This document shows positions 5,665 through 48,245 of a stretch of DNA of 64,000 nt, piece after piece. A program made the position numbers and the translations under genes. Positions within the stretch are counted from its first letter, which is position 1. Every line of letters begins with the position of its first letter. The stretch is taken from positions 310,001 to 374,000 of the forward strand of contig NZ_JACHJP010000006.1 of assembly GCF_014203715.1 (NCBI RefSeq), in the 5' to 3' direction. Source of the stretch: Streptosporangium saharense. GTDB taxonomy: Bacteria; Actinomycetota; Actinomycetes; Streptosporangiales; Streptosporangiaceae. The notes below the pieces were generated by a model. It was not told where the DNA came from. It did no database searches and saw nothing but the letters and a program-made list of their open reading frames with translations.

Positions 5665-7238
5665 GCGAGCGACCTCATCAGGCGTCCGGTGAGCGTGTAG
5701 GCGGTGGCGACGCCGCCCCAGATGATCAGGGTGATGAAGGTGACCCTGGCGTCGAAGAAGGCGCTGACGAGCGCGATGGCGGCGAAGCGCTCGCCGATCG
5801 GGAAGACGACCATCTTGCGGGCCCAGTAGACGGCCCTGTTCCTGCCGGCCTTGCTCCACATCCTCAGCAGGCCGCGGATGCCGCCGCTGCGGGCGATCTT
5901 GCGCTGCTCCAGCGCCGCGCGCAGCTCGGTGTCGGGGCTGGTCGCCAGCGAGACCGAGGGCAGCGGCGAGGGCGGCCTGCGCCGGTTGGCGGCGCCGAAG
6001 GAGAAGTCGAGCAGGTGCTTGACGGACTGCAGGGCGATCGCGGTCAGCGCCAGCGTCCACACGTCGCCGACCCCGGAGATGGCCGCGCCGACCGCGAGCC
6101 CGGCGAAGACCACGTACTCCTTGAACCGGTCGAAGGTGGCGTCGAGCCAGGCGCCGAGCACGCCGAACTTGCGCGCGTAGCGCGCGACCTGGCCGTCCAC
6201 GCAGTCGAACACGAACGCGAAGTAGATCAGGATGGCACCCGCCACCATGCCGGGCCGCGCGCCGGTCGCGAAGCAGGCCGCCGAGGCGACGCCGAGCGCG
6301 ATCGAGATCAGCGTGACCTGGTTCGGGGTGAGCCCCCGCCTGGCCGCCCAGCGGGCGATGAAGCGCGAGTAGGTGCTGACGAAGTAGGTGGTGAAGAAGC
6401 CGTCGGCGCCCTTGACCGCGTTGTTCAGCCGGGCCCTGTCCTCGTTGAACTCCGCCATCTCGGCGACCGCCTGCGCGGCCTCCTCCTGGGTGTTCAGGCG
6501 GCGGAAGAACAGGTCGCGCCTGCCCCGGATGCCGACCGAGACGCCACGCCGTACCAGACCGAGGACCAGGAGCTGGACCAGGTCGTCCTCGGGGCCGAAC
6601 AGGTGGGCCATGTCCGCGAGCTCGCGGGCGGCCTCGGCCAGGGTGGCCGCGTGCTTGTGGTGCAGGTGCAGCGGGCCCAGCAGGACGGAGTTCGGGCGGG
6701 TCACCGCGTGGAAGGCGGAGCCGACCGAGATCACCCGGGACTTGCTCGCCCGCACCCTGACCGGCAGGCCTTCGAGGGTGCGGTCGCCGATCTCCGGCAG
6801 CGCCTCGTCGATCGGGACGTCGGGGACGATGAAGTCGCCGTTCTCGTCCTCCTCGCGGGGCTCCTTGGTGATCAGCGCGAGCGCGCCGCGCTTCGACTTG
6901 GTGATCTGGTAGAGCAGCTCGTCGTGGACCAGCGAGTTCGCGGGCAGGAGGAGCAGGTTCTCCGTCGCGTCCTCGACCGCGTCCGCGACGGCGCGCAGGG
7001 CGCCCGCGAGATCGGCGGTCTCCACGAGACGGCCGGGGAGACCCCGGTGGGCCTCGGCCTCGCCGGAGCGGACGATCGTCACCGGAGCGGGATCGAGGGA
7101 GGCGATCTGGCCGTGCAGTTTGCCGATCACCGTGGGGGAGCCGGGGAGCACGGGCAGGGTCAGCGCGGCGGGCGGCGTCGGCTGGCCGAAAGCGGTTGAA
7201 GTGCCAGGTGATGAACCCAGCAGGACCACGCGGGGCAT
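5661..7238 (-). CDS. Nucleotidyltransferase-like/CDP-alcohol phosphatidyltransferase fusion
   Basis: The C-terminal half carries a complete CDP-alcohol phosphatidyltransferase signature: D..DG..AR, then G and D...D (DCVDGQVAR ... GAWLDATFD), set among transmembrane helices. The N-terminal ~270 residues begin MPRVVLLGSSPG and resemble a sugar-phosphate nucleotidyltransferase-like domain. This architecture resembles enzymes that make and then use a CDP-activated alcohol, such as CDP-inositol. However, the N-terminal domain shows no clear GxGxRL-type signature, so its activity is uncertain. ATG 7238 is preceded by GAAAGGG and preferred over 7271. The gene is coupled to the DUF5941 gene and probably makes a phospholipid or phosphoglycolipid head group. 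Confidence 0.8.
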   Translation of the reverse strand: MPRVVLLGSSPGTSTAFGQPTPPAALTLPVLPGSPTVIGKLHGQIASLDPAPVTIVRSGEAEAHRGLPGRLVETADLAGALRAVADAVEDATENLLLLPANSLVHDELLYQITKSKRGALALITKEPREEDENGDFIVPDVPIDEALPEIGDRTLEGLPVRVRASKSRVISVGSAFHAVTRPNSVLLGPLHLHHKHAATLAEAARELADMAHLFGPEDDLVQLLVLGLVRRGVSVGIRGRRDLFFRRLNTQEEAAQAVAEMAEFNEDRARLNNAVKGADGFFTTYFVSTYSRFIARWAARRGLTPNQVTLISIALGVASAACFATGARPGMVAGAILIYFAFVFDCVDGQVARYARKFGVLGAWLDATFDRFKEYVVFAGLAVGAAISGVGDVWTLALTAIALQSVKHLLDFSFGAANRRRPPSPLPSVSLATSPDTELRAALEQRKIARSGGIRGLLRMWSKAGRNRAVYWARKMVVFPIGERFAAIALVSAFFDARVTFITLIIWGGVATAYTLTGRLMRSLA

Positions 7239-7397: not shown

Positions 7398-8150
7398 GTG
7401 ACCCTGTACCGTGACGAGGGCATCGTGCTGCGCACGCACAAACTGGGCGAGGCCGATCGCATCGTCACCGTCCTGACCAGGCGGACCGGAAAGATCCGGG
7501 GCGTCGCCAAGGGCGTGCGGCGGACCATGTCGCGCTTCGGCGCCCGCCTCGAACCCTTCACCCACGTGGATCTCCAGCTCCACACCGGCCGCACCCTCGA
7601 CGTGATCACCCAGGCGGAGACCATCCGCCCGTACGGCGAGGCCCTCGTGACCGACTACCCGCGCTACACGGCCGGCAGCGCGATGCTGGAGACCGCGGAC
7701 CGGCTGATCATGGGCGAGAAGGAACCGGCCCTGCGGCACTTCCTGCTGCTGGTCGGGGGGCTGCGCACGCTGGGCTCGGGCGAGCACGAGGCCAGGCTCG
7801 TGCTCGACGCCTACTTCCTGCGCTCGCTGGCCGTGGCGGGCTACGCTCCGGCCCTGGAGGCGTGCGCCCGGTGCAGGGCGCCCTCGGTCAGGGCGTTCGC
7901 GATCGTGGCGGGGGGAGTGGTGTGCGGGACCTGCCGTCCCGCGGGCGCCGCCGTACCGGCCGGGGAGACCATCGCGCTGATGGTCGCCCTGCTCAAGGGC
8001 GACTGGCCGAGCGCGGACGCCTCGGAGAGCAGGCACCGCGCCGAGTGCAGCGGCCTGGTCGCCGCCTACCTCCAATGGCACCTCGAACACGGCATACGCT
8101 CGCTCCGTCATGTGGAACGGGAGCGCGCAGAAAGGGAGCTCGCCACGTGA
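7398..8150 (+). CDS. recO: DNA repair protein RecO
   Basis: The 250-residue protein has the RecO OB-fold N-terminus ([20 protein letters not shown]...[16 protein letters not shown]). A C-terminal helical domain follows, with a four-Cys zinc site, CARC around residue 155 and CGTC around residue 178. RecO loads RecA on SSB-coated gaps together with RecR and anneals complementary strands. Its start is the GTG at 7398. The stop overlaps the GTG of uppS (GTGA), so the two are translationally coupled. This recO-uppS order is common in actinobacteria. Confidence 0.96.
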
Positions 8151-8938
8151 ACGTCCGTCCCCCGACGCCCCATCCGTCAGGAGCGACCCCGCCGCCCATT
8201 CCCCGCGACCTCGTGCCCCGGCACGTGGCGATCGTGATGGACGGCAACGGCAGGTGGGCCAAGCAGCGCGGTCTGCCGCGCACCGAGGGACACAAGGCCG
8301 GTGAGTCCTCGCTGTTCGACGTGATCGAGGGCGCGATCGAGCTGGGCGTCCCCTACCTGTCCGCCTACGCCTTCTCCACGGAGAACTGGAAGCGCTCGCC
8401 GGACGAGATCCGCTTCCTGATGGGCTTCAACCGCGACGTCATCCGCCGCCGCAGGGACGAGCTCAACGCGATGGGGGTGCGGGTGCGCTGGGCGGGCCGT
8501 CCCGGACGGCTCTGGAAGAGCGTCATCAAGGAGCTGCAGGACGCCGAGCGGATGACCGAGGGCAACTCCAGACTGACCCTGCAGTTCTGCGTCAACTACG
8601 GCGGCCGCGCCGAGATCGTGGACGCCGCGCTGCGCCTGGCCGAGGACATCGCCGCGGGCAGGGTCAAGCCGGGCAAGGTCAAGGAAGAGACCTTCGCCAG
8701 ATATCTCGACGAGCCGGACATCCCCGACGTCGATCTGTTCGTGCGCTCCTCCGGCGAGCAGCGCACCTCCAACTACCTGATCTGGCAGATGGCCTACGCG
8801 GAGATGGTGTTCCTGAACCGCCTGTGGCCCGACTTCGACCGCCGCGACCTCTGGGAGGCCTGCGAGCTGTTCGCCAAGCGCGACAGACGGTACGGCGGGG
8901 CCGTGCCCAACCCCGTCGCGCGGACCCCACTCCCCTGA
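8147..8938 (+). CDS. uppS: Isoprenyl transferase (polyprenyl/undecaprenyl diphosphate synthase)
   Basis: The GTG at 8147 overlaps the recO stop and gives a 263-residue protein of normal UppS length with a short proline-rich lead-in. The catalytic loop [19 protein letters not shown] contains the essential Asp (D32). FSTENWKRS and the late [13 protein letters not shown] segment are diagnostic of cis-prenyltransferases. The enzyme extends an allylic diphosphate with isopentenyl diphosphate in cis, making the lipid carrier for peptidoglycan and other wall polymers at the membrane. Conserved features are complete. Confidence 0.95.
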
Positions 8939-8969
8939 GGCCTGCGCGGGAGCCGTACCGGACCGGCTT

Positions 8970-9464
8970 TCAGGCCTTGACCTCGCGCAGCCGTCCCGTC
9001 TCGACCTCGTAGATGAAGCCGCGGACCGAGTCGGTGTGCGGGATGAAGGGGTCGTTCCTGATGCGGCTGATGGACTGCAGGACGTCCTCCTCCAGGTCGG
9101 GGAAGGCCTCGGCCGCCCAGTCGGGCTTGGCACCGACCTCCGCCTGGATCTGCCGCTTGAACTCGTCGTCGGTGAAGGTGAGCATTCCGCAGTCGGTGTG
9201 GTGGATGAGGATGATCTCCCGCGTGCCGAGCAGGCGCTGGCTGATGGCCAGGCTGCGCCGCTCGTCGGCGGTCACCACCCCGCCCGCGTTGCGGATGACG
9301 TGCGCGTCGCCCTCGGTGAGACCCAGCAGGCCGTACGGGTTCAGCCGGGCGTCCATGCAGGCCAGCACGGCGACCCCGCGCGCCGGGGGCAGCGGTAGGT
9401 GGCCCTTGTCGAAGGTCGCGGCATAACGCTCCGCGTTGGCGAGAAGCTCGTCGGTGACGCTCAT
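8970..9464 (-). CDS. Beta-class carbonic anhydrase
   Basis: Zinc ligands are visible as C36 (ACMDAR, with the Asp/Arg dyad), H89 and C92 (HHTDCGM) in a 164-residue protein. The start at ATG 9464 is preceded by AGGAGAT at ideal spacing, so the upstream ATG at 9479 is unlikely. The enzyme interconverts CO2 and bicarbonate in the cytoplasm. It is monocistronic and convergent with uppS. Confidence 0.94.
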   Translation of the reverse strand: MSVTDELLANAERYAATFDKGHLPLPPARGVAVLACMDARLNPYGLLGLTEGDAHVIRNAGGVVTADERRSLAISQRLLGTREIILIHHTDCGMLTFTDDEFKRQIQAEVGAKPDWAAEAFPDLEEDVLQSISRIRNDPFIPHTDSVRGFIYEVETGRLREVKA

Positions 9465-9518
9465 GAGATCTCCTGTCATTCCTCAGGGAAACGCCACAGG
9501 CAAACCTACCTTTATTTC

Positions 9519-10517
9519 CTACTCAGTCAATAGGTAATTACGGAGAGTGCTTCTCCGGTCGGAAGCCTGGGCGGCGCGGGTGGCGCGGGCGCCCAGGGCA
9601 CGTAGATACGCGACCAGCTCCGGCGGCTCGCGCACCTCGAACTCGCAGCCGAGCATGAGCAGGCGCGCGGCGGTCCACTCCAGGGTGTCGGCCGGTCCCC
9701 GCAGGAGGCAGCTACGCTCGTCGATCGGCTCGACGCCCCCCGCGCCGCCGAGCCGGCGCGCCACCTCCTCGGCGGGAAGGCCCAGGGTAGCCACCACCTC
9801 GTACGTGGGCGCGGACGAGTACAGCCTGCCGGTGACGAACGCGGCCACGTCCTGTTCCGGCGGCACCCGGGCCGGGACCCGTACGCCGGTCGCCAGCGGA
9901 TCGCCGATCCGGTCGACGCGGAAGTTCCGCCAGTCGTCGCGGTCGTTGTCGTAGGCCAGCAGGTACCACCGGCGTCCGGCCGTCACCAGGCGGTACGGCT
10001 CGGTCAGGCGCCTGGTCTCCGTGCCGTCGGCGGCCCGGTAGGCGAAACGCAGCCGCTCACGGTTGGCGACGGCCCCGGCGAGCACCACCAGGGTCTGCGG
10101 ATCGACGGGCGGCCCGTCCACGGTGCGCATCGGCACGGTCGCGGCGGCGAGCGCGCCGACCCGGTGCCGCAGCCGGGCGGGCAGCACCTGCTCCAGCTTG
10201 GCCAGGGCCCGTACGGACGCCTCCTCGATGCCGTCCACCGGATGCGAGGCCGCGGTGCGCAGGCCGACGGCGATGGCCACCGCCTCCTCGTCGTCGACCA
10301 GCAGCGGCGGCATGGCCGTACCCGCGGCGAGCCGGTAACCGCCGGCCGCGCCCATCGTCGCCTGGACCGGATATCCCAGCTCGCGCAGGCGGTCGACGTC
10401 GCGGCGGACGGTCCGGGGGCTGACGCCGAGACGCTCGGCCAGCTCACTGCCCGGCCAGTCGCGGGGCGTCTGGAGCAACGACAGCAGTTCGAGCAGCCGT
10501 GCGGACGTGTCACTCAT
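9519..10517 (-). CDS. WYL-domain transcriptional regulator (YafY/DeoR-like HTH)
   Basis: An N-terminal winged HTH (residues 1-60, LAERLGVSPRTVRRDVDRLRELG) is followed by a WYL domain with the characteristic RRWYLLAYD run and a C-terminal extension, 332 residues in all. WYL proteins sense small ligands, sometimes nucleic-acid-related. This one is divergent from an epoxide hydrolase gene. A perfect 9-bp inverted repeat lies between them, so local control of both genes is likely. The start could be ATG 10517 or 10529; neither has a strong ribosome binding site. Confidence 0.9.
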   Translation of the reverse strand: MSDTSARLLELLSLLQTPRDWPGSELAERLGVSPRTVRRDVDRLRELGYPVQATMGAAGGYRLAAGTAMPPLLVDDEEAVAIAVGLRTAASHPVDGIEEASVRALAKLEQVLPARLRHRVGALAAATVPMRTVDGPPVDPQTLVVLAGAVANRERLRFAYRAADGTETRRLTEPYRLVTAGRRWYLLAYDNDRDDWRNFRVDRIGDPLATGVRVPARVPPEQDVAAFVTGRLYSSAPTYEVVATLGLPAEEVARRLGGAGGVEPIDERSCLLRGPADTLEWTAARLLMLGCEFEVREPPELVAYLRALGARATRAAQASDRRSTLRNYLLTE

Positions 10518-10535
10518 GACAGCCAGCATGCCCGA

Positions 10536-10564
10536 CCATGTAGGACAGATCCCGACCTACATGG
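10536..10564. promoter_or_regulatory. Inverted repeat, probable operator of the WYL regulator
   Basis: CCATGTAGG and CCTACATGG form a perfect 9-bp inverted repeat separated by 11 bp, so the half-sites sit on one helical face. It lies in the 89-bp gap between the divergent WYL regulator and the epoxide hydrolase. That position suits an operator for both promoters. Confidence 0.65.
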
Positions 10565-10606
10565 CTCCTAACGTTGTTCCCGTTGCCACGACCCGTCGGG
10601 AGAAGC

Positions 10607-11740
10607 ATGAACACCGAGATCCGCCCCTTCCGGATCGACATCGCCCAGGCCGACCTGGACGACCTGAACGACCGCCTCGACCGCACCCGGTGGCCCCGGC
10701 CGCTGCCCGGCGAGGGATGGACCCGTGGGGTTCCCGTCACCTACCTCAGGGAACTGGCCGCCTACTGGCGCGACGGATACGACTGGCGCGGGCACGAGGC
10801 GCGCCTGAACGGGTTCCCGCAGTTCATGACCGAGATCGACGGCCAGGAGATCCACTTCCTGCACGTACGCTCAGCCGAGCCCGACGCCCTGCCGCTCGTC
10901 CTCACCCACGGCTGGCCGAACACGTTCGCGGAGTTCACCCGGCTCATCGGCCACCTCACCGACCCCCGCGCGCACGGCGGCGACCCCGCGGGGGCCTTCC
11001 ACGTCGTCGTCCCCTCCGTGCCGGGCTTCGGGTTCTCCGCGCCGCCACGCGGGACCGGCTGGAACGCGGCGCGCGTGGCGCGGACCTGGGTGGAGCTGAT
11101 GCGCCGCCTCGGCTACGAGCGGTACGGCACGCAGGGCGGGGACTTCGGGGCCTACGTCGCGCCCGAGGTCGCCAGGGCCGCGCCGGACCACGTGGCCGGT
11201 GTCTACGTCATCGGCGGTCTCGGTTTCCCCACGGAGAAGGACCTGCCGGAGATGACCGAGGAGGAGCGGGCGGCCTTCGCCTGGCTCCAGGGACAGGACT
11301 GGATGAACGGCGTCGACCACCACGCGCTGCTGCGCGCGGCGCCACAGACCTTCGCCTACGGATGGCACGACTCACCGGTCGCGGCGCTGGCCTGGATGAC
11401 GCAGAAGTTCCACGAGTTCAACGCCTCGGGCAGGCCGTTGGAGGAGGTGATCGACCGGGACCTGCTGCTGACCAACGTGAGCCTGTACTGGTTCACCGCA
11501 ACCTTCGGCAGCTCGGCCTGGCCGTACTACGAGAGCATCGGCTTCGACTGGCCGGAGGGCCAGACCGCCGTGCCGACCGGCGTCTACAGCGGCCCACCCG
11601 GTATCCGCCGCCTGGCCGAACGCCACAACGCCATCCTCCACTGGCCCGAGAACAACCCCTCCGGCCATCACTTCATCGCCATGGACCAACCAGCCAACCT
11701 GGCCACCGACCTCCAAACCTTCTTCGCCAAAGTCCGCTAA
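10607..11740 (+). CDS. Epoxide hydrolase family alpha/beta hydrolase (EHN N-terminal domain)
   Basis: The first ~110 residues match the epoxide-hydrolase N-terminal domain ([23 protein letters not shown]), followed by an alpha/beta-hydrolase fold. HGWPN supplies the oxyanion-hole region, GGDFGAY the nucleophilic Asp, and SGHHF near the C-terminus the catalytic His. Start ATG 10607 follows GGAGAAGC, so the longer open frame upstream is not used. The protein is 377 residues, normal for microsomal-type bacterial epoxide hydrolases. Substrate unknown. Probably regulated by the divergent WYL protein. Confidence 0.9.
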
Positions 11741-36417: not shown

Positions 36418-36490
36418 TCCCGTGTAGCTCAATCGGCAGAGCAGCCGGCTGTTAACCGGCAGGTTATAGGTTCGAGTCCTATCGCGGGAG
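36418..36490 (+). tRNA. tRNA-Asn (GTT)
   Basis: A cloverleaf can be drawn: acceptor TCCCGTG paired with CGCGGGA, anticodon stem GCCGG/CCGGC with loop CTGTTAA (anticodon GTT), T-loop TTCGAGT and discriminator G. A genomic CCA follows at 36491-36493. Confidence 0.96.
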
Positions 36491-36773: not shown

Positions 36774-38009
36774 GTGCCGACTTGGCCGAGAACCCGGCGC
36801 CAGACGCCGGAGAGGGAACAGGGAGCACGTGCGCAGGACTACGAGGGATCCCATCGGGGAGGCCACGACAGGACACCGCGGCAGCCGCCCGCCCAGCCGG
36901 TGGACCTGGGGGCCGCCGAGGAGTTCCTGAAGCTGTTCCACGAGGAGAACCCGGAGGCGGGCCCGATGCGGCCCCGGCTGCGCGAGGTGCGTGCCGAGAT
37001 CACCGCCACGGGGACCTACACCCACACCCCGAAGGAACTCGTCTTCGGCGCCAGGGTGGCCTGGCGCAACAGCGACAGGTGCATCGGGCGGCTGTACTGG
37101 AAGTCGCTGCGGGTGCGCGACCGGCGCCGGGTGAACACGGTCGAGGGGGTCGCCGTCGAGTGCGTCAACCACCTCCGCGAGGCCGCCTCGGAGGGCAAGA
37201 TCCGGCCGATGATCACGATCTTCGCCCAGGACCGTCCCGGGGCGCCGGGGCCGAGGATCTGGAACGAGCAGCTCATCCGGTACGCGGGGTACGCGATGGA
37301 CGACGGCTCCATCGTCGGCGACCCGCGCAACGCCGGATTCACCACGATGGCGCGCAAGCTCGGCTGGCCCGGCGGCAGGGGCACACCCTTCGACGTGCTT
37401 CCCTTGGCGGTCTCGATGGGGGACGGGCCACCGCTGCTGTCCATGATCCCCGGGGACGCGGTGCTTGAGGTGCCGCTGTCCCACCCGGCCTATCCGTGGT
37501 TCGAGCGGCTGGGGCTGCGCTGGCACGCCGTACCGGCGATCTCGAACATGTGCCTGGAGATCGGCGGGATCTGCTACCGGGCGGCGCCGTTCAACGGGTG
37601 GTACATGGGCACTGAGATCGGGGCGCGCAACCTCGCCGACCCCGACCGCTACAACCTGGTGCCGCTGGTCGCCGCGCGGCTCGGCCTGGACACCCGCAGC
37701 GAGCGCTCGCTGTGGCGGGACCACGCGCTGGTCGAGCTGAACGTGGCGGTGCTGCACTCCTTCGACAGGGCGGGGGTCACGATCACCGACCACCACACCG
37801 AGTCCAGGCGCTTCCTGACGCACGTGGAGCGTGAGGAGAGGGCGGGCAGGTCCTGCCCGGCCGACTGGAGCTGGATCGTCCCGCCCATCTCCGGCGCCGC
37901 GACCCCGGTCTTCCACCGGTACTACGACCAGGCGCGGCTCTCACCGAACTTCGTCACGCACCCCGACGCCCAGGAGCGGTCGGCGGGTCGGTGGAGCAGG
38001 GGATGGTGA
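36774..38009 (+). CDS. nos: Nitric oxide synthase oxygenase
   Basis: The haem-thiolate loop AWRNSDRCIGRLYW (ligand C103) marks this as an NO synthase oxygenase domain. FNGWYMGTEIGARNL carries the Glu that binds arginine, and the late pterin-region DWSWIVPP also fits. There is no reductase domain, as in other bacterial NOS, so a host flavodoxin or ferredoxin system must supply electrons. It oxidises arginine to NO and citrulline. GTG 36774 follows AGGTGG; the first ~40 residues are low-complexity and the true start could be further in. Arginine-degrading genes lie elsewhere in the window. Confidence 0.93.
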   Translation: MPTWPRTRRQTPEREQGARAQDYEGSHRGGHDRTPRQPPAQPVDLGAAEEFLKLFHEENPEAGPMRPRLREVRAEITATGTYTHTPKELVFGARVAWRNSDRCIGRLYWKSLRVRDRRRVNTVEGVAVECVNHLREAASEGKIRPMITIFAQDRPGAPGPRIWNEQLIRYAGYAMDDGSIVGDPRNAGFTTMARKLGWPGGRGTPFDVLPLAVSMGDGPPLLSMIPGDAVLEVPLSHPAYPWFERLGLRWHAVPAISNMCLEIGGICYRAAPFNGWYMGTEIGARNLADPDRYNLVPLVAARLGLDTRSERSLWRDHALVELNVAVLHSFDRAGVTITDHHTESRRFLTHVEREERAGRSCPADWSWIVPPISGAATPVFHRYYDQARLSPNFVTHPDAQERSAGRWSRGW

Positions 38010-38018
38010 CGCCCGGCG

Positions 38019-38531
38019 TCACCGGGGCTCGGCGACCAGGGAGAGCCAGTGCGGGGGTGAGGCGAAGGGGGCCTTCCTGGCGGTGACGGCCTCCATCAGG
38101 GTGGCCGCGGAGGCGCGGGCGCCCTCGATGACCTCCCTGGGGTAGGCGTAGCGGACCTGGTGCTCCTCGAACTCGTCCTCGTCGTCGAGGAGCACCCGGC
38201 CGTCCTTACGCATGCGGATCACGTCGAGATCGAGGTCGATCATGGTCACCTCGTCGCCGTTCCAGCGCGGCACGGTCGAGACGTCACAGTAGATCTCCGC
38301 CTTGTACGGCGCCGCGTTGAAAGTGGCCGTCCACCAGGCGTCACGGGGGAAGAGGATCACGAACGGCTCGTCCCAGACGACGGGCGGCTCCTGCCCCCGC
38401 CTGCCGCTGCTGCCGGGCGGGCAGCCGACCCACACACCGTGCTCGTCCTCACCGAGGAGCAGCGCCGGGTGGTTCCAGTGCAGTGAGCCGTCGTACTTGC
38501 GGTAGACCACCTTCACGATCTCATGAGACAT
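38019..38531 (-). CDS. DUF402 (FomD-like) protein
   Basis: The 170-residue protein matches DUF402. It has a beta-barrel core with acidic motifs (MIDLDLDVIRMRKDG and DDEDEFEEHQVRY) that in FomD-type proteins bind divalent metal and a nucleotide-phosphonate substrate. Most DUF402 proteins are thought to be phosphohydrolases acting on nucleotides. It starts at ATG 38531 and converges with the NOS gene 9 bp away. The exact substrate is unknown. Confidence 0.82.
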   Translation of the reverse strand: MSHEIVKVVYRKYDGSLHWNHPALLLGEDEHGVWVGCPPGSSGRRGQEPPVVWDEPFVILFPRDAWWTATFNAAPYKAEIYCDVSTVPRWNGDEVTMIDLDLDVIRMRKDGRVLLDDEDEFEEHQVRYAYPREVIEGARASAATLMEAVTARKAPFASPPHWLSLVAEPR

Positions 38532-38586
38532 CCCCCGACTTTAAGGGTTGACAGAGATCTATGTATTTCCTACCGTCTAACTAGGT

Positions 38587-38700
38587 TAAGAGCGTCAGTG
38601 CAAAGCCCCGGCTGGCTGACCGGCAACCCTCGCACCGCGGCGGGGTGCCCCCGGGGGAGACCGGGCGGCACGGTCGGCGTGCCGCAAGCGCGGACCCGCA
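38587..38700 (+). promoter_or_regulatory. SAM-IV riboswitch
   Basis: The run AAAGCCCCGGCTGGCTG, followed by CCGGCAACCCTCGCACCGCGG, GGGGTGCCCC and a further GCGGCACG/CGTGCCGC hairpin (38665-38685), reproduces the SAM-IV aptamer core known from actinomycetes. It lies just upstream of the GST-family gene, whose ribosome binding site GGGAG is at 38721-38725. Binding of S-adenosylmethionine would switch the operon off when sulfur or methionine is plentiful. Boundaries are approximate. Confidence 0.85.
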
Positions 38701-38731
38701 CGGGTCACCGAGGCATGCCTGGGAGTGCCAC

Positions 38732-39673
38732 ATGTCCGAGATCACACTCAACTACGCGAGCCCCGTCGACCTGGACACCCACGGTCACTACCGGCCGGGC
38801 GGCAGGCTGGGTCCCCGCTACCCCTTCCAGGGACGGATCACCGACGACGGCACGGGGGAGTTCCCCGCCGAGCCCGGGCGCTACCACCTCTACGTCGCGG
38901 CCGTCTGCCCCTACGCGCAGCGCGCGGCGATCGTGCGCTCCCTCAAGGGGCTGCAGGAGGTCGTCTCGCTGTCCTACGTGGACGACGATCGCGACGGCAG
39001 GGGCTGGGCGTTCCGCGAACGGCGCGGCGCCGACCCGGTCAACGGCTTCGCGACCCTCAGGCAGGCCTACGAGGCGACCGAGCCCGGATTCGACGGCCAC
39101 GTCTCGGTGCCCGTTCTCTGGGACCGGCACGGCGGGCGCATCGTCAGCAACAACTTCCCGGACATCACCCTCGACCTGGGCACCCGCTTCGGCGGCGACC
39201 CCGACGTGGACCTCTACCCCGAGGAACTGCGGCCCGAGATCGACGCGCTCAACACGCGGATCTACGAGTTCGTCAACACCGCGGGCGGCAAGGTCGCCGC
39301 GGCCACGACCGAGCGGGAGTATCACGAGGCGAGGAGGGCCGTCGTCGACTTCCTCGACGAACTCGACGCCAGACTCGCCGACCGCAGGTTCCTGTTCGGC
39401 TCCGCGATCACCGAGTCCGACGTACGGCTCTGGCCCACCCTGGTCAGGTTCGACGTCGCCGACAACCCCTCGGCCAGGATCAGCGAGCGTCCGCTGACCG
39501 CCTTCCCCAACCTGTGGGCCTACGCCAGGGACCTCTACCAGCACCCCGCCTTCCACGAGAACACCGACCTCACCGTGCTCGCCTCCACGCCCAGGGAGAC
39601 CGAGCCCTGGCGCGTCCAGGTCGAGCCCTCCACCCCCGACTGGGACCTTCCCCATCGAAGAGCAGCGCTGTGA
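38732..39673 (+). CDS. Glutathione S-transferase family protein (glutathionyl-hydroquinone-reductase-like)
   Basis: The 313-residue protein has an Omega/Xi-class GST layout. A thioredoxin-like N-domain carries the redox motif CPYAQRA near residue 54, and an all-helical C-domain follows (FLDELDARLADRRFLFGSAITESDVRLWPTL). Xi-class enzymes reductively remove a thiol from conjugates. Actinomycetes mostly use mycothiol, so the natural thiol could differ. It is the first gene behind the SAM-IV switch, with ATG 38732 after GGGAG. It likely processes a sulfur-containing compound brought in by the downstream importer. Confidence 0.85.
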   Translation: MSEITLNYASPVDLDTHGHYRPGGRLGPRYPFQGRITDDGTGEFPAEPGRYHLYVAAVCPYAQRAAIVRSLKGLQEVVSLSYVDDDRDGRGWAFRERRGADPVNGFATLRQAYEATEPGFDGHVSVPVLWDRHGGRIVSNNFPDITLDLGTRFGGDPDVDLYPEELRPEIDALNTRIYEFVNTAGGKVAAATTEREYHEARRAVVDFLDELDARLADRRFLFGSAITESDVRLWPTLVRFDVADNPSARISERPLTAFPNLWAYARDLYQHPAFHENTDLTVLASTPRETEPWRVQVEPSTPDWDLPHRRAAL

Positions 39674-39710
39674 CGAGCCGTACGAGCCGTACGAGAGGGG
39701 AGTGGACGGC

Positions 39711-41471
39711 GTGAGCGCCTCCATCGCGATCGTCGGCGCGGGGCCGACCGGCACCTGCCTGGTCGAGCGGATCTGCGCCAACGCCGCCGAGCTGCTCAGC
39801 TGGCCTTCGCTCGACATCCACGTGATCGACCCCTACCCGCCTGGCGGCGGAAGGGTCTGGCGCGAGCGGCAACCCGACCTGCTCTGGATGAACTCCGCCG
39901 CCGCGGACGTGACGCTCTTCACCGACGAGTCCGTCCGGTGCGTCGGCCCGATCCGCCCCGGCCCCTCGCTGGCCGAGTGGCTCGGCTGCGATCCGGGACG
40001 GTTCGTCCCCAGGCCGGTGCAGAACGCCTACCTCACCCACGTCTTCCAGCGCGCCGTGGACACCGCCCCCCGAGGGGTGCGGGTGCACGTGCACCGGACC
40101 CGAGTCCTCGACCTGACCGACGTTCCCGGGGGCCAGGCCGTACGGCTTGAGGACGGCACGACGGTCGAGGTCGACGCGGTGATCCTCGCGCAGGGACACG
40201 GCGACGTCACCCCGGCCGCCGACGAACGCAGGCTGACGGCACTGGCCAAGGAAAGTGGCCTGCGCTACGTGCCGACCGGCTACACCGCCGACCTCGACCT
40301 CGGCCAGGACCAGCTGCCTCCCGGCGAACCGGTGATCGTGCGCGGCCTGGGACTGGCCTTCGTCGACCTGATGGTGCTGCTCACCTCGGGCAGGGGCGGC
40401 CGGTTCGTCAGGGAGCACGACGGGGAGCTGGTCTACCTGCCCAGCGGGCGGGAACCGCTGCTGCACGTGGGATCGCGGCGCGGCGTGCCGTACCACGCGA
40501 AGACCGCCTATCCCTACCGGGGACTGCGCCCACCGGAGCCGCGCTTCCTGACCGCGCGGGCGCTCGGCGAGGGGCCGTGGAACTTCCGGCGGGACGTGTG
40601 GCCGCTGGTGGCCAAGGAACTCGCCTTCGCCTACTACCACGAGCTGATCAACAGCCACCCGAGGCGGGTCAGGATCGGCTGGGCGGAGTTCGCCGAGCGG
40701 TTCGCCGCCGAGGAGTGGCGCAGCTCCGGGATGCGGCTGCTGATCCGCAAGGCCGTACCCCGGCACGCCGACCGGCTCGACCTCGACCGGCTCGACCGGC
40801 CCCTCGACCGGATCCGCTTCGGCGACCAGGCAGGACTGCACCGGTGGATGGACGGCTACATGGCCGCCGACCTGGCACGGCGCTCCGACCCCGCGCACAG
40901 CGCCGACCACGCCCTGATCCTCGGGCTGCTGTCCGTCAACGGCGTCCTCGCCGAGCTGGGCATCTCCGACCGGTGGTTCGAGGGCTTCTTCAGCTACGTC
41001 GCCAGCGGCCCGCCCGGCCCCCGGCTTGAGGAGCTCAAGGCCCTGGCCAGGGCGGGCGTGGTCACCTTCCTCGGCGCCGATACCAGGGTCGAACACCGCG
41101 GCGGGCGCTGGGTCGCGCAGAGCCCGACCCTGCCCGGCGTCGTCACCGCGCGAACCCTCGTCGAGGCCAGGCTGCCCGCGCCCAGCGTCAGCCGCTCGAC
41201 CGACCCCCTCATCTCCACGCTGCGCGACCGCGGCGAGATCGACGAGTCAGCCGGCCTGCTGAGAGTACGGCCCGCCGACCGCCGCCTGCTTGACCGGTCG
41301 GACACCCCTCATCCCCGCAGGTTCGCCTTCGGCCCCTGGGTCGTCGGCGGCCGGGTCACCGGCGGCTTCGCCAGGCCCGGCCTCGACGCCCCGCTCTTCC
41401 GCCACGCCGACGCCCTGGCCCGGATCGTGCTGTCCGAGGCCGTCACCACCCAGATCAGACATGTCGCTTGA
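39711..41471 (+). CDS. FAD/NAD(P)-binding protein (NAD_binding_9 type)
   Basis: The N-terminal dinucleotide fold starts IAIVGAGPTGTCLVERI, with the acidic residue after the second strand in HVIDPYPPGGG. LILAQGHGDVTP and a C-terminal GPWVVGGRVTGGFARPG give a flavoprotein-like architecture of 586 residues. It belongs to the poorly characterised FAD/NAD(P)-binding family PF13454. GTG 39711 is preceded by AGGGGAG; GTG 39702 is an alternative. Co-transcription with the GST-family gene suggests a two-enzyme redox pair. No substrate is known. Confidence 0.82.
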   Translation: MSASIAIVGAGPTGTCLVERICANAAELLSWPSLDIHVIDPYPPGGGRVWRERQPDLLWMNSAAADVTLFTDESVRCVGPIRPGPSLAEWLGCDPGRFVPRPVQNAYLTHVFQRAVDTAPRGVRVHVHRTRVLDLTDVPGGQAVRLEDGTTVEVDAVILAQGHGDVTPAADERRLTALAKESGLRYVPTGYTADLDLGQDQLPPGEPVIVRGLGLAFVDLMVLLTSGRGGRFVREHDGELVYLPSGREPLLHVGSRRGVPYHAKTAYPYRGLRPPEPRFLTARALGEGPWNFRRDVWPLVAKELAFAYYHELINSHPRRVRIGWAEFAERFAAEEWRSSGMRLLIRKAVPRHADRLDLDRLDRPLDRIRFGDQAGLHRWMDGYMAADLARRSDPAHSADHALILGLLSVNGVLAELGISDRWFEGFFSYVASGPPGPRLEELKALARAGVVTFLGADTRVEHRGGRWVAQSPTLPGVVTARTLVEARLPAPSVSRSTDPLISTLRDRGEIDESAGLLRVRPADRRLLDRSDTPHPRRFAFGPWVVGGRVTGGFARPGLDAPLFRHADALARIVLSEAVTTQIRHVA

Positions 41472-41492
41472 GATCCCCCGAGGAGAAGGTAA

Positions 41493-43133
41493 GTGAAAGT
41501 GCAAAAGGGCATCCTGGCTCTCGTCGGGGTGCTGACGCTCGCCGCCTGCGGAGCCGAGACCGGAGCCGCGAACACGGCCTCGGGCGGCGAGGGCGGCGGT
41601 GCCAAGGGGGGCTCGCTGGTGTGGGCTGTCGAGACGCAGCCCGTCACGTTCAACCCCCAGCAGTGGGGTCAGAACAAGGCCAGGCTGCTGGTGCACAACC
41701 AGTTCGACGCGCTCGTCGCCAGGGGCAAGGACGGTGAGTTCCTGCCGTGGCTGGCCACCTCGTGGGAGGTCTCGAAGGACGGCCTCACCTACACCTTCCA
41801 GCTCAGGAAGGACGTGACCTTCCACGACGGCGAGAAGTTCGACGCCGCCTCGGTCAAGGCCAACCTCGACCAGCTCGTCGCGCCCGGATACAACGCCGCG
41901 GTCGCCGGGATCCAACTGCGCAACTTCTCCTCGGCCGAGGTGACGGACCCCTACACGCTGAAGGTCACGCTGAAGGCGCCCGACGCGCTGTTCCTGGACT
42001 TCCTGTCCTCGCCGTACGCGGGGCAGGTCTCCCCGAAGTCGCTGAAGACCGCAAAGGACCTCAAGGCGGGCGGCCCCGACCTCGTCGGCACGGGACCGTT
42101 CATCCTCGACCGCTTCACCCCCGGCCAGGAGGTCCACTACCGGCGCAACCCCGCCTACAACTGGGCACCGCCCAACGCCGCGCACCAGGGACCCGCCTAC
42201 CTGGAGGAGATCACCTACCGGTTCCTGCCCGAGGCCGCGGTCCGGGTCGGCGCGCTCACCTCGGGGCAGGTCCAGGTCATCGAGGGTGTGCCCGCGACCG
42301 AACTCGGCCTCCTCAAGGCCGACTCCAGCGTGAAGGTGGAGACCAGCCTCAACTCGGGCAGCGCGTTCTCCTACTACTTCAACATCTCCCACCCGCCGTT
42401 CGACGACAAGCGGGTGCGCGAGGCGTTCAGGGACGCCGTCGACGTGGACACCGTGCTCAACTCGGTCTACCAGGGCACGGCCAAGCGGGCCTGGAGCATC
42501 GTCGGCCAGGGCAGCCCGCAGTTCTACGACGCCTCCCTGGAGAACACCTACGGCAACAACGCGCAGCGGGCCAACAAGCTGCTCGACGAGGCGGGCTGGA
42601 GCAAGCGGGACGCCGAGGGCTTCCGGGTCAAGGACGGCAAGCGGCTGACCGTCCGCTCCATCGAGTCGGCCCCCTACGTCAGGGACCGCCGCGACGTCCT
42701 CGCGCAGGCCGTACAGGCCGCGGTCAAGCAGAGCGTCGGCATCGACTTCCAGCCCAAGGTGGTCGACCAGGGCACCCAGCAGAAGGCGCTGCAGGACGAC
42801 CAGTACGAGCTGTTCCAGAACTCGCGCGGCGACACCGACGCGGGGGCCGCGCTCAACCTGATCCTGCCGAAGGGCGCGGCGATCAACCGCACCCACTACG
42901 AGAACGCCGAGCTGGACAAGCTGCTCGCCGAGGCCTCGACCACCTCCGACCTGGCCAAGCGCAAGGAGATCTACGCCAAGGTGCAGCGGATCGTCGTCAC
43001 GGACGAGGCGCTGCTGCTGCCGCTCTACGTCCCCGCCGACCAGGTCGCCTACGGCGCCGGGGTCACCGGGATCACCTTCGAGCCGGTCTCCGGCACCCCC
43101 AACAGTGCTTACGACGTCCGGACAGGCACGTGA
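41493..43133 (+). CDS. ABC transporter substrate-binding lipoprotein, family 5 (peptide/nickel type)
   Basis: The lipobox LAAC gives C19. The mature protein has the SBP_bac_5 fold with TSWEVSKDGLTYTFQLRKDVTFHDGEKFDA as its recognisable start and a C-terminal lobe typical of oligopeptide binders, 546 residues. The GTG start has AGGAGAAGGTAA upstream. Its stop overlaps the first permease (GTGA). It captures the ligand outside the membrane. Control by the SAM-IV switch suggests a sulfur-containing ligand, by inference. Confidence 0.93.
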   Translation: MKVQKGILALVGVLTLAACGAETGAANTASGGEGGGAKGGSLVWAVETQPVTFNPQQWGQNKARLLVHNQFDALVARGKDGEFLPWLATSWEVSKDGLTYTFQLRKDVTFHDGEKFDAASVKANLDQLVAPGYNAAVAGIQLRNFSSAEVTDPYTLKVTLKAPDALFLDFLSSPYAGQVSPKSLKTAKDLKAGGPDLVGTGPFILDRFTPGQEVHYRRNPAYNWAPPNAAHQGPAYLEEITYRFLPEAAVRVGALTSGQVQVIEGVPATELGLLKADSSVKVETSLNSGSAFSYYFNISHPPFDDKRVREAFRDAVDVDTVLNSVYQGTAKRAWSIVGQGSPQFYDASLENTYGNNAQRANKLLDEAGWSKRDAEGFRVKDGKRLTVRSIESAPYVRDRRDVLAQAVQAAVKQSVGIDFQPKVVDQGTQQKALQDDQYELFQNSRGDTDAGAALNLILPKGAAINRTHYENAELDKLLAEASTTSDLAKRKEIYAKVQRIVVTDEALLLPLYVPADQVAYGAGVTGITFEPVSGTPNSAYDVRTGT

Positions 43134-44101
43134 GCACCCTCACACTCACCCGGCGGCGGGGGCTGGCCGCCGCCGGGTGGATCGGCCCGGTGGTCAGGCG
43201 GCTCGGAGCGGGACTCGTCGTGCTCTGGGTCGCCGCCACCGCGGCCTACGTCGCGCTGCTGCTCGTCCCCGGCGACACCGTGGACGTCCTCATCGCCGAC
43301 GGCGTCGACACCCCGCAGCGGCGGGCGCAGATCATCACCGAATGGGGGCTCGACCGCCCCATCCCACACCAGTACGGCGACTACCTGCTGAGGCTGCTCC
43401 ACGGCGACCTCGGCCGCTCCTACGTCCTGCAGCGCGACGTCGCGGAGATCCTGTCCTCGCAGATCTGGCCGACCGTCAGGCTCGCCCTCACCGCGGCGGC
43501 CTTCGGCGTCGTGATCGCCCTCGTGCTCGCGCTGACCACCGCGGGCCGCCGTTCCTGGACCACCGGGCTCGCCGGGTTCTCCGAGCTGACCGCGGCCTCG
43601 ATCCCGCCGTTCCTTGCCGGTCTCCTGCTGCTGGCCGTCTTCTCCTTCACCCTCGGGTGGTTCCCCGTCTCCGGCGACCGTGGTTTCGCCTCCCTCGTGC
43701 TGCCCGCCCTGGCCCTCGGCCTGCAGATCGCCGGGGCCCTCGGCCAGGTGCTGCGCGAGGGCCTGGAACGGGCGCTTGAGGAACCGTTCGCGGTGACCGC
43801 CCGCTCGCGCGGCATCACCGAGTGGCGGCTCGTCGCCAGGCACGCCCTGCGGCACGCGTTGCTGCCCGCCGTGACCCTCACCGGCTGGTTCGTCGGCGTC
43901 CTGCTCGGCGGGGCGATCGTCGTCGAGGCCGTCTTCGGCAGGCCCGGCCTGGGGCAGATCACCCTCGGCGCGGTGACCGGCAAGGACATGCCCGTGGTCA
44001 TGGCCGTCATCATGTTCGCCGCCGCGATCTACGTGACGGTCAGCACCCTCGTGGACCTCGCCTACCTCGCGATCGACCCCCGGTTGAGGAGGAGCCGATG
44101 A
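43130..44101 (+). CDS. Peptide-type ABC transporter permease (DppB-like)
   Basis: This 323-residue permease has six transmembrane helices. The EAA loop (VTARSRGITEWRLVARHALRHALLPAV) couples to the ATPase, and the DppB-type extracytoplasmic loop HGDLGRSY is present. It begins at GTG 43130 inside the binding-protein stop and ends in the ATG of the second permease (ATGA). Confidence 0.93.
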   Translation: MSTLTLTRRRGLAAAGWIGPVVRRLGAGLVVLWVAATAAYVALLLVPGDTVDVLIADGVDTPQRRAQIITEWGLDRPIPHQYGDYLLRLLHGDLGRSYVLQRDVAEILSSQIWPTVRLALTAAAFGVVIALVLALTTAGRRSWTTGLAGFSELTAASIPPFLAGLLLLAVFSFTLGWFPVSGDRGFASLVLPALALGLQIAGALGQVLREGLERALEEPFAVTARSRGITEWRLVARHALRHALLPAVTLTGWFVGVLLGGAIVVEAVFGRPGLGQITLGAVTGKDMPVVMAVIMFAAAIYVTVSTLVDLAYLAIDPRLRRSR

Positions 44102-45057
44102 CCGTCTCCGACAGGGAACCGGCCTCCGAGCGCTCCGACAGGGAACCGGCCGTCGCGGTGCCGCCCGCCCGGCTCGCGGCCGACGACGAACCTGGCCTCG
44201 ACCCCGTGCCCGCCGTTCCCCCCGCCGCCCCGCGCACTGTCCCGCGCCGGTACGGCGTGCGTCCAGGACAGGTCGTCGCGCTGCTCTTCCTGGCCGTCAT
44301 CGCGGTCGCCGCTCTGGCCCCCGGCCTGCTGAGCGGAGCCGACCCGCTGGCCGCGGACCCGCTGCACGCGCTCGCTCCACCGAGCGCCCAGCACTGGTTC
44401 GGCACCGACCACCTCGGACGCGACGTGCTCTCCCGGGTCGTCCACGGGGCCGGTTACTCGCTGGGCATCGGCGCCGCGGCGATCCTGTTCGCCGCCGTCC
44501 TGGGCACCGTCCTCGGCGCGCTGGCCGGACTGTCCCCCCGCTACGTGGACGAGCCGCTCAGCCGCCTGTTCGACGTGCTGGCCAGCTTCCCCGAACTGCT
44601 GCTCGCCATGCTGGTCATCAGCGTCACCGGGCCCGGCGCGGGCAACGTGATCCTCGCGATCGGCCTGGTCCAACTGCCCAACTACGCCCGCGTCATCAGG
44701 GGACAGACCTTCGTCGTGCGCCGCTCAGGCTACGTGGAACAGGCCGTCACCCTCGGGCTGCGCAGGCCGACCCTCGTCGTGCGCCACGTGCTGCCCAACA
44801 TCCTGGGGCCGCTCCCCGTGCTCGCCACGATCGGCATGGGCACCGCCATCATCGCCACCTCCGGGCTCAGCTTCCTCGGCATGGGCCCGCAGCCGCCCGA
44901 CCCCGAATGGGGCTCGATGCTGGCCGAGGCACGCAACTACCTGCGCGTCGCCTGGTGGTCCGTACTCTTCCCCGGCCTGTTCGTCACACTGACCGTCGTC
45001 AGCCTGACCGCGGTCGGGCGCCGCCTCCAGCGCCGTTTCGAGGGGAGACTCCCATGA
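44098..45057 (+). CDS. Peptide-type ABC transporter permease (DppC-like)
   Basis: A disordered N-terminus of about 50 residues containing a duplicated SDREPA motif (one copy after another at 4-9 and 13-18) precedes the DppC-type domain. That domain has HWFGTDHLGRDVLSRVVHGAGYSL and the EAA loop VTLGLRRPTLVVRHVLPNILGPL. It is coupled by ATGA on both sides and pairs with the DppB-like subunit to form the channel. Confidence 0.92.
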   Translation: MTVSDREPASERSDREPAVAVPPARLAADDEPGLDPVPAVPPAAPRTVPRRYGVRPGQVVALLFLAVIAVAALAPGLLSGADPLAADPLHALAPPSAQHWFGTDHLGRDVLSRVVHGAGYSLGIGAAAILFAAVLGTVLGALAGLSPRYVDEPLSRLFDVLASFPELLLAMLVISVTGPGAGNVILAIGLVQLPNYARVIRGQTFVVRRSGYVEQAVTLGLRRPTLVVRHVLPNILGPLPVLATIGMGTAIIATSGLSFLGMGPQPPDPEWGSMLAEARNYLRVAWWSVLFPGLFVTLTVVSLTAVGRRLQRRFEGRLP

Positions 45058-46661
45058 GCCTCATCGAGGTCGAGGACCTGCGTGTGACCTTCCCCAAGGC
45101 CGGGGTCGAGGCCGTCAGGGGGGTGAGCCTGTCGATCGCCGAGGGCGAGTGCGTGGCGATCGTCGGAGAGTCGGGATCGGGCAAGAGCGTCACCGCCAGG
45201 ACCCTGGTCGGACTGACCGGCCAGGGCGCTACCGTGACGGCCAGCCGGTTCGACGTCAGGGGCAGGGACGCCCGCCGCTTCGGACCCCGTGACTGGCGCA
45301 GGCTGCGGGGCCGCTTCGCCGGGCTCGTGCTCCAGGACGCCCTCGTCTCGCTCGACCCGCTGCGCACCGTCGGAGCGGAGATCGCCGAGGTGCTCGCCGC
45401 CCACGACGTCGTGCCGCGTGCGGGCCGTACGGAAAAGGTGCTCGAACTGCTCGACGCGGTCGGCGTGCCGGAACCGGAGCTGCGGGCCGCGCAGTACCCC
45501 CACCAGCTCTCCGGCGGGCTGCGCCAGCGCGCGCTGATCGCCTCGGCCATCGCGGCCGACCCGCCGCTGCTCATCGCGGACGAGCCGACCACCGCGCTCG
45601 ACGTCACCGTGCAGGCCCAGATCCTGCGCCTGCTGGCCGCGCGCAGAGCCGAGGGCACGGCGCTGCTGATGATCAGTCATGACTTGGCCGTCGTCTCCTC
45701 CATCGCCGACCGGGTGCTCGTCATGAAGGACGGCGTGGTCGTCGAGGAGGGACCGACCAACCGGGTGCTGTCCGCCCCCGAGCGGGACTACACCAGGCTG
45801 CTGCTGGCCGCCGTACCGTCCGCGGCTTCACGGGGCACCCGCCTGTCGGCCATCGCGACCGGTGGCGTCTCGCTGCGCGCCCCGCTGCCCGAGCGCAGGA
45901 TCGACCACGGCTCGCCGGTCGTCGAGGCCAGGGGCCTGACCGCCGAGTACGGCCGGCGCCGCGTGGTCGACGACGTCTCCTTCGAGGTCCACCCCGGCGA
46001 GACCGTCGGCATCGTGGGGGAGTCGGGCTCCGGCAAGACGACAGTCGCCCGGCTCGTCATGGGGCTGATGAAGCCCGTCGCCGGACAGGTGTGGCTGGAC
46101 GGCTCTCCCTGGTCGGGGCTGCCCGAGCGCGAACGCCGCCCCCGCCGCTCCGTCATCCAGGTGATCTCGCAGAACCCGCTGGACTCCTTCGACCCCCGCT
46201 ACACCGTCGGCCGTCTTGTCGCCGAACCCCTCGGCGGGCCGTGGAAGTCACGCGCGGCCAGGGTCGCCGAACTGCTCGAACGGGTCGGCCTGCCCGCGGA
46301 CCTCGCCGGACGCCACCCGAGAGGACTGTCCGGCGGTCAACGGCAACGGGTCGCCATCGCCAGGGCACTGGCCCCCAGGCCCCGGGTGCTCGTGTGCGAC
46401 GAGCCGGTCTCCGCACTTGACGTCTCGGTCCAGGCCCAGGTGCTCGACCTGCTCGGCGAGATCCAGGCGGCCGACGGAACCGCCCTGATCTTCATCTCGC
46501 ACGACCTGGGGGTGGTCCACCACATCAGCGACCGGGTGGTGGTCATGCGGGAGGGCCGGGTGGTCGAGGACGGCCACGTGGACGAGGTGTTCTTCCTGCC
46601 CAAACACGAGTACACAAAGGAACTCCTCGGCGCGGTCCCCAAACTCGCGACCACCCTTTAG
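45054..46661 (+). CDS. Peptide-type ABC transporter double ATPase (DppD-DppF fusion)
   Basis: The 535-residue protein contains two nucleotide-binding domains. The first has Walker A GESGSGKS, signature LSGGLRQR and Walker B LLIADEPT; the second has GESGSGKT, LSGGQRQR and VLVCDEPV. Fused ATPases of this kind serve a single importer. It is the last gene of the SAM-IV operon. No terminator hairpin is obvious in the 238 bp before galK. Confidence 0.93.
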   Translation: MSLIEVEDLRVTFPKAGVEAVRGVSLSIAEGECVAIVGESGSGKSVTARTLVGLTGQGATVTASRFDVRGRDARRFGPRDWRRLRGRFAGLVLQDALVSLDPLRTVGAEIAEVLAAHDVVPRAGRTEKVLELLDAVGVPEPELRAAQYPHQLSGGLRQRALIASAIAADPPLLIADEPTTALDVTVQAQILRLLAARRAEGTALLMISHDLAVVSSIADRVLVMKDGVVVEEGPTNRVLSAPERDYTRLLLAAVPSAASRGTRLSAIATGGVSLRAPLPERRIDHGSPVVEARGLTAEYGRRRVVDDVSFEVHPGETVGIVGESGSGKTTVARLVMGLMKPVAGQVWLDGSPWSGLPERERRPRRSVIQVISQNPLDSFDPRYTVGRLVAEPLGGPWKSRAARVAELLERVGLPADLAGRHPRGLSGGQRQRVAIARALAPRPRVLVCDEPVSALDVSVQAQVLDLLGEIQAADGTALIFISHDLGVVHHISDRVVVMREGRVVEDGHVDEVFFLPKHEYTKELLGAVPKLATTL

Positions 46662-48171: not shown

Positions 48172-48245
48172 GGGGCGGTAGCTCAGCCGGTTAGAGCAGG
48201 GGACTCATAATCCCTGGGTCGCGGGTTCGAGTCCCGCCCGCCCTA
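48172..48245 (+). tRNA. tRNA-Met (CAT), elongator type
   Basis: Acceptor GGGGCGG pairs with CCGCCCT (first pair G-U), the anticodon stem GGGGA/TCCCT encloses CTCATAA (anticodon CAT), and the T-arm is GCGGG-TTCGAGT-CCCGC with discriminator A. CCA is not encoded. A tRNA-Ile with lysidine-modified CAT cannot be fully excluded. Its 3' side is the probable edge of the accessory region that follows. Confidence 0.93.

Follow-up and report, generated by a model that had tools for sequence, protein, structure and literature searches.

We have analysed a 64,000-nucleotide stretch of the genome of the soil actinomycete Streptosporangium saharense (contig NZ_JACHJP010000006.1, positions 310,001 to 374,000, hereafter the window), in which a SAM-IV riboswitch (SAM, S-adenosylmethionine) heads an operon encoding a xi-class glutathione S-transferase (GST)-like protein, a flavoprotein and a peptide-type ATP-binding cassette (ABC) importer. 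The operon probably takes up an S-substituted cysteine- or peptide-like compound under repression by SAM and salvages its sulfur by oxidation. An initial annotation of the window had proposed salvage of thiol conjugates with reductive sulfur release by the GST. Organosulfur import and salvage stands as its likeliest theme; a central place for reductive release by the GST is not supported in the form proposed. The aptamer, the gene identities, their conservation, the fold and flavin-site residues of the flavoprotein, the loss of its aspartate site, the neighbourhoods of its relatives and the repeated loss of the GST were all computed directly.

Operon organisation

Three Rfam matches were obtained in the whole window, one SAM-IV riboswitch and two tRNAs. 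The features of the operon are as follows.

38548..38576, + strand: promoter, TTGACA, 17-nt spacer and TACCGT, read from the sequence
38584..38696, + strand: SAM-IV riboswitch aptamer, RF00634, 84.1 bits, full length
38721..38725, + strand: Shine-Dalgarno GGGAG, 6 nt 5' of the GST start, read from the sequence
38732..39673, + strand: xi-class GST-like protein, 313 aa, motif CPYA, PF13410 and PF13409 (GST_C_2/GST_N_2)
39702..41471, + strand: class-B-type flavin adenine dinucleotide (FAD)/NADPH monooxygenase-like flavoprotein, 589 aa, alternative start 39711, PF13454 (NAD_binding_9), 147.3 bits
41493..43133, + strand: family-5 substrate-binding lipoprotein (SBP, substrate-binding protein), lipobox LAAC by eye, PF00496 (SBP_bac_5), 283.6 bits
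43130..44101, + strand: importer permease, DppB/OppB type, PF00528 (BPD_transp_1) and PF19300
44098..45057, + strand: importer permease, DppC/OppC type, PF00528 (BPD_transp_1)
45054..46661, + strand: fused importer ATPase with two nucleotide-binding domains, PF00005 (ABC_tran) in two stretches

The initial annotation had described five or six tightly coupled genes; six co-directional genes were found downstream of the aptamer, with the last stop at 46661 as claimed. Gaps of 28 nt (GST to flavoprotein) and 21 nt (flavoprotein to SBP) precede the last four genes, which are joined by start-stop overlaps of 4 nt at three junctions. The importer is complete, as had been proposed, and of the peptide (Dpp/Opp/Nik) type: SBP_bac_5 was found in the SBP, BPD_transp_1 in both permeases and ABC_tran in two stretches of the ATPase, where two Walker A motifs (GESGSGKS and GESGSGKT) and two LSGG motifs were read from the sequence. 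The best NCBIfam model for the SBP was TIGR04028 at 248.9 bits, under its cut-off of 468.5, and the protein also resembles the nickel/opine metallophore binders NikA and CntA. No NCBIfam family was matched by the GST or the flavoprotein at an E-value of 0.001.

The SAM-IV riboswitch and its leader

The aptamer proposed in the initial annotation was tested with the Rfam SAM-IV model and confirmed. The match covers model positions 1-116 of 116 and begins 3 nt upstream of the start first assigned, with an E-value of 1.5e-13 and a gathering score of 38 bits to compare with its 84.1 bits. SAM-IV riboswitches have two pseudoknots, PK-1 and PK-2 (PMC6890682). The window aptamer was aligned with 22 other SAM-IV sequences. 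In it the strands of both pseudoknots, CCCCGG/CCGGGG and CCGCG/CGCGG, are complementary, with the register assigned by eye. In these respects the element is a usual SAM-IV riboswitch, but it differs in what it precedes: published targets include O-acetylhomoserine sulfhydrylase (PMC3774663) and, in Streptomyces clavuligerus, a class V aminotransferase (PMC8269248), and here the target is a GST–flavoprotein–importer operon. This operon is not reported as a SAM-IV target among the open-licence literature matches listed. The genome of the window holds two SAM-IV elements, and the second heads a gene whose product is a class V aminotransferase of SufS-like type, its 272.6 bits falling short of the model cut-off.

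The leader between aptamer and start codon is 35 nt long. A consensus promoter scan of 38400-38800 gave 0 sites; the second hexamer needs four of six matches and TACCGT has three. Actinobacterial -10 boxes have the form TAnnnT.

The search for SAM-IV covered 41 genomes, i.e. that of the window and 40 relatives, and 29 of them contained the riboswitch. Under stricter filters, 12 of the 16 Streptosporangium members had a second copy, about 110-114 nt long. The genus comparison was made on 12 Streptosporangium loci including the window, and TTGACA-17-TACnnT, the aptamer and a ribosome-binding site were found at all of them, the Shine-Dalgarno sequence being GGGAG in 11 and TGGAG in one. That the promoter, the aptamer and the leader are seen at all 12 loci shows the arrangement not to be due to chance.

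Two more, divergent SAM-IV elements were seen in Streptosporangium subroseum at a locus that contains no gene of this operon (L070, 10181-10289 on the - strand, 79.9 bits, and 10377-10492 on the + strand, 53.5 bits).

Fold and active site of the flavoprotein

The flavoprotein, at first called uncharacterised, does have a solved sequence homologue, and only one: PDB 8cp2 (E 5e-108), the L-aspartate N-hydroxylase of Streptomyces sp. V2, which belongs to the FzmM/CreE family (PMC10404684). An AlphaFold model (mean predicted local distance difference test score, pLDDT, of 86) matches 8cp2 with a template modelling (TM) score of 0.86 and 40% identity over the full length, or 43% in the multiple alignment; the next different protein has a TM score of 0.36.

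In 8cp2, Trp51 and Asn62 are partners of the flavin, Arg13, Arg276, Asn413, Arg416 and Arg577 are ligands of aspartate, and Arg266, Arg409 and Arg412 bind sulfate (PMC10404684). We surveyed these residues with 8cp2 as reference in an alignment of 99 rows, near-copies included. Ninety-five rows are different, the identical pairs being L068/L079 (the same record), L019/L080, L022/L087 and L027/L155. Partial or short homologues were excluded, L024, L025, L026, L031 and L069 from the alignment and L152, by its length, from the tree.

The window flavoprotein has the FAD/NADPH-site fold together with Trp51 and Asn62, which are conserved in 95 and 97 rows, respectively. The only aspartate ligand that it keeps is Arg577 (93 rows). 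Thr is found in the Arg13 column (Arg in 66 rows), and positions 276, 409, 412, 413 and 416 are occupied by Pro, Leu, Asn, Gly and Ala. Each of Arg276, Arg409, Arg412, Asn413 and Arg416 occurs in just two or three of the 99 rows, and all five are kept only in L028 and L029, which group with 8cp2 in the tree; the Arg266 column is Lys in 96 rows. The window flavoprotein lies outside the branch holding 8cp2 (Shimodaira-Hasegawa-like approximate likelihood ratio test, SH-aLRT, 99). The alignment is gapped at the substrate site, where a pairwise version aligns both 276 and 416 with Gly and leaves 413 opposite a gap; the loss as a whole is therefore more certain than any one column.

Since the aspartate-binding arginine cluster is absent, the substrate is expected to differ from L-aspartate, and the function of an aspartate N-hydroxylase proper was rejected. 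As judged from sequence, the flavoprotein shares fold and flavin site with the FzmM/CreE family, but its binding site, without the arginine cluster and Asn413, is not that of an aspartate hydroxylase. It is mildly surprising that the main enzyme of the operon should resemble one that oxidises nitrogen and yet differ from it in the substrate pocket.

Some other homologues have features of their own. The L029 flavoprotein gene with the aspartate cluster (8924-10873) adjoins a lyase-like gene (7473-8927, by eye), and the two may be a true nitrosuccinate pair. The short homologues L024, L025 and L026 span about residues 180-506 and lack the FAD-binding N-terminus; beside that of L025 lies a GST-like gene lacking the CPxA half.

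Genomic neighbourhoods of flavoprotein relatives

The neighbourhood sample consisted of the best 80 of at least 403 loci; it is not random and several genera are over-represented. One locus without a called flavoprotein (L130) was excluded, and 79 were counted. Gene calls and clusters were produced by custom scripts, and a cluster was named by one scanned member (Pfam/NCBIfam) or by an operon protein contained in it. The clusters named in this way were SBP_bac_3, amino-acid permease, GCN5-related N-acetyltransferase (GNAT), luciferase-like monooxygenases and DUF1684.

At least one counted neighbour type was present within 4 kb at 57 of the 79 loci, two of these being this operon itself (L079 and L080); the 57 carry 19 organism labels, one of which is a family name only. 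Luciferase-like monooxygenases were found within this distance at 40 loci, amino-acid importers at 34, GNAT at 24, peptide importers at six and xi-class GSTs at four. As an internal control, near (4 kb) and far (5-10 kb) counts were compared in the 68 loci with full flanks, giving 37/12 for the main monooxygenase clusters, 32/9 for amino-acid importers, 22/2 for GNAT, 10/2 for DUF1684 and 4/0 for xi-class GSTs. An amino-acid permease gene lies directly upstream of the flavoprotein gene, with a 4-base overlap, in 19 of the 79 loci. On the flavoprotein tree the label 'sulfur neighbour' is clustered, with 15 changes against a shuffled mean of 29.3, to which near-copies contribute too.

In two Klenkia genomes a SAM-IV riboswitch heads a GNAT-permease-ATPase-SBP-SBP operon divergent from the flavoprotein gene, and another precedes a gene resembling, by eye, a class V aminotransferase. 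In six neighbour loci scanned with Rfam, the two SAM-IVs of L119 were the only sulfur riboswitches.

The genome of the window has related gene types elsewhere. An unlinked operon (L171) encodes an SsuD-like monooxygenase, a permease, an ATPase, an SBP3 and a GNAT, and the best matches of its permease and SBP are cystine-transporter models, below cut-off. Another (L170) contains four monooxygenases, for two of which the NtaA/DmoA and MsnO8 models score above cut-off. Neither locus gave an Rfam match, and the five loci examined in this genome for homologues of the monooxygenases and amino-acid binding proteins gave none above cut-off. The gene types of L170 and L171 are those of S-alkylcysteine salvage in Bacillus, which consists of acetylation, CmoO, CmoJ and deacetylation (PMC10863075). 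The likeness to that pathway lies in flavin monooxygenases that free cysteine sulfur and in the flavoprotein relatives that stand beside monooxygenase, GNAT and amino-acid importer genes. The window operon differs from it in having a peptide-type importer and an FAD enzyme instead of a luciferase-like monooxygenase or GNAT. The term FAD is absent from the main text, as far as available, of studies of altered sulfur supply in Rhodococcus and Gordonia (PMC8557817, PMC7661421).

Two GSTs near the flavoprotein gene in other loci have CPHC (L123, gene 12) and CPDC (L133, gene 9) in place of CPxA.

Conservation and gene loss in Streptosporangium

The initial annotation had suggested looking for the aptamer and these genes together across actinomycetes. 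Riboswitch, flavoprotein and whole importer occur together at 10 of the 12 genus loci; of the other two, L069 retains only a fragment of the flavoprotein gene, and L073 has a diverged flavoprotein (56%) and no importer. The GST is intact at six loci (the window, L063, L065, L066, L068 and L071) and missing or eroded at the other six, four of which retain flavoprotein and importer. GST remnants persist in L064, L067 and L072, and a GST-like stretch at the start codon was read in L062, L064, L069 and L073. In the flavoprotein tree L062, L064, L067, L072 and L073 each stand apart among GST-bearing rows. Five separate GST-less positions mean at least five losses, if the gene was never regained; most, not all, of the forks behind this count have starred branch support. 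The GST as an indispensable enzyme was therefore rejected.

Four genus genomes have a single SAM-IV. Three of them (G005, G066 and G067) are without the flavoprotein, and in the fourth (G071) the flavoprotein is intact and the promoter and initial aptamer bases remain, while the GST, the importer and the remainder of the riboswitch are gone. A Microtetraspora operon (L019) consists of flavoprotein and importer without GST. About 5 kb upstream of it a Guanidine-I riboswitch was seen (5764-5900, 67.8 bits, cut-off 63).

The GST and its likely thiol

The CPYAQR motif reported for the GST was located. The nearest solved chains are 4pts (8.3e-56), 3m1g (1.9e-49), 4fqu, 6gzf and YqjG (3.8e-45), and the xi-class matches include Trametes xi 1 (1.4e-40), so the protein is a xi-class homologue, though with Tyr for Trp in the Cys-Pro-Trp-Ala motif of that class. 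The initial annotation had asked which thiol serves a GST in a mycothiol-type host. MshC is present in the genome at 633 bits (cut-off 485.1), the glutathione synthetase domain PF02955, the sole glutathione gene looked for, has no match there, and in Corynebacterium glutamicum the xi-class enzyme MstX, which has CPWA, works as a mycothiol S-transferase (PMC6815410). For these reasons mycothiol, rather than glutathione, is the likely thiol partner, as far as sequence can tell. The window GST resembles MstX in xi-class kinship, in the active-site Cys of CPxA and in a mycothiol-making host, and differs from it in having CPYA and in its place in an importer operon behind a SAM-IV aptamer (PMC6815410).

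A paralogous SBP-permease-permease-ATPase-GST operon exists in the same genome, with proteins 44-65% identical and the GST motif CPWAQR, and without flavoprotein or riboswitch. Searching for the GST at E 1e-70 gave 15 of 197 genomes of the class, namely that of the window and 14 others with 17 loci. In the gene rows listed, importer or luciferase-like genes lie within about five genes at six of these 17 (L180, L181, L190, L193, L194 and L195), importer genes are further away in L184 and L185, and nine show none. The GST would thus belong partly to such settings, though dispensable in this operon.

Proposed function and alternative explanations

In the mechanism that we propose, the SAM-IV leader would permit expression of the six genes at low SAM and shut them off at high SAM, a direction taken from known SAM riboswitches. 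The SBP, the permeases and the double ATPase would bring in an organosulfur compound that resembles an S-substituted cysteine, a mercapturate or a peptide. The flavoprotein, as a class-B NADPH/O2 monooxygenase with a changed pocket, would oxygenate the import and so labilise its C-S bond. The xi-class GST may have an accessory part as a reductase that uses mycothiol, either to take off a thiol adduct or to reduce a sulfur intermediate in oxidised form.

Several observations weigh against oxidative sulfur salvage under SAM control. No terminator was predicted in the leader, and when the 12 leaders were folded by partition function the Shine-Dalgarno sequence was not consistently masked. Known relatives of the flavoprotein act by oxidising nitrogen rather than sulfur (PMC10404684). 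No SAM-IV was found at the Microtetraspora operon, and in the genus member that keeps the flavoprotein alone (L177, about 9040-9180) most of the riboswitch is deleted, with the promoter and first aptamer bases left in front of an intact flavoprotein gene. A clear SAM-IV is present in just three of the 80 flavoprotein loci (L079 and the two Klenkia), two further matches being at chance level. Twenty-two of the 79 loci, nine of them Amycolatopsis, lack the counted neighbours inside 4 kb. Peptide importers, the type found in the window, are barely enriched (near/far 6/4), and the monooxygenase cluster LLM24, not counted as sulfur-type, is far rather than near (1/7). Finally, genes for GNATs, luciferase-like proteins and family-5 importers occur widely and have other uses, and 'sulfur-type' is our own label.

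Reductive salvage of a thiol conjugate, in which the xi-class GST and mycothiol release the sulfur moiety after import and the flavoprotein is secondary, was the proposal of the initial annotation. It would account for the GST as first gene behind the riboswitch in a mycothiol genome, and some role of the GST is favoured both by the paralogous importer-GST operon lacking a flavoprotein and by the six of 17 other GST loci that adjoin importers or luciferase-like monooxygenases. We nevertheless consider it improbable, because the GST has been lost at half of the genus loci, with flavoprotein and importer kept at four, and because the flavoprotein is of the oxygenase type. Similarly improbable is a plain importer of methionine, cysteine or sulfur peptides, with both enzymes as redox helpers against by-products of sulfur limitation. 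A complete peptide-type importer is at hand and methionine or cysteine transport is often under SAM riboswitches, but the flavoprotein is retained where GST or importer is lost (L073 and L177), and half of its relatives have luciferase-like monooxygenases close by. An N-hydroxylating biosynthetic module with its own importer, making a nitro, oxime or hydroxamate product, e.g. for metallophore recovery, appears very unlikely. It would suit an enzyme whose sole full-length solved homologue is an aspartate N-hydroxylase and an SBP with likeness to NikA and CntA; the aspartate site is lost, however, the six genes include no lyase, nonribosomal peptide synthetase or nicotianamine-type gene, and SAM control and the neighbourhoods of the relatives fit it poorly.

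Oxidative salvage may be extended to a more specific and rather doubtful proposal. A large actinobacterial branch of the FzmM/CreE-type amine oxygenases with a rebuilt aspartate pocket could serve sulfur salvage by oxygenating the amino nitrogen (or the sulfur) and so starting C-S cleavage of S-substituted cysteines, e.g. mercapturates from mycothiol detoxification. It would be a self-contained FAD/NADPH route parallel to the two-component luciferase-like route, and in Streptosporangium a compact module under a SAM riboswitch that includes an importer of its own and a GST dependent on mycothiol.

If oxidative salvage is correct, a family of flavoenzymes familiar from the making of nitro and oxime natural products is also active in general sulfur nutrition, and a widespread FAD/NAD(P)-binding (PF13454) subfamily obtains a testable function, with a caution against labelling its members nitrosuccinate synthases. 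It would also place the xi-class GSTs of mycothiol organisms in a nutritional setting and add to the list of SAM-IV targets. The open-licence literature matches listed contain no report of the operon or of a sulfur role for the flavoprotein.

Adjacent genes

Upstream of the operon, an oxygenase-only nitric oxide synthase gene (36879-38009, + strand, PF02898, 510.6 bits) was identified, and such a gene is also found near the operon in several Streptosporangium loci and in L019. A DUF402 gene (38019-38531, - strand), NtdP-like below cut-off, is divergent from the riboswitch and adjoins it at all 12 Streptosporangium loci. The tRNA genes lie on either side of the region, at 36418-36490 and 48172-48245.

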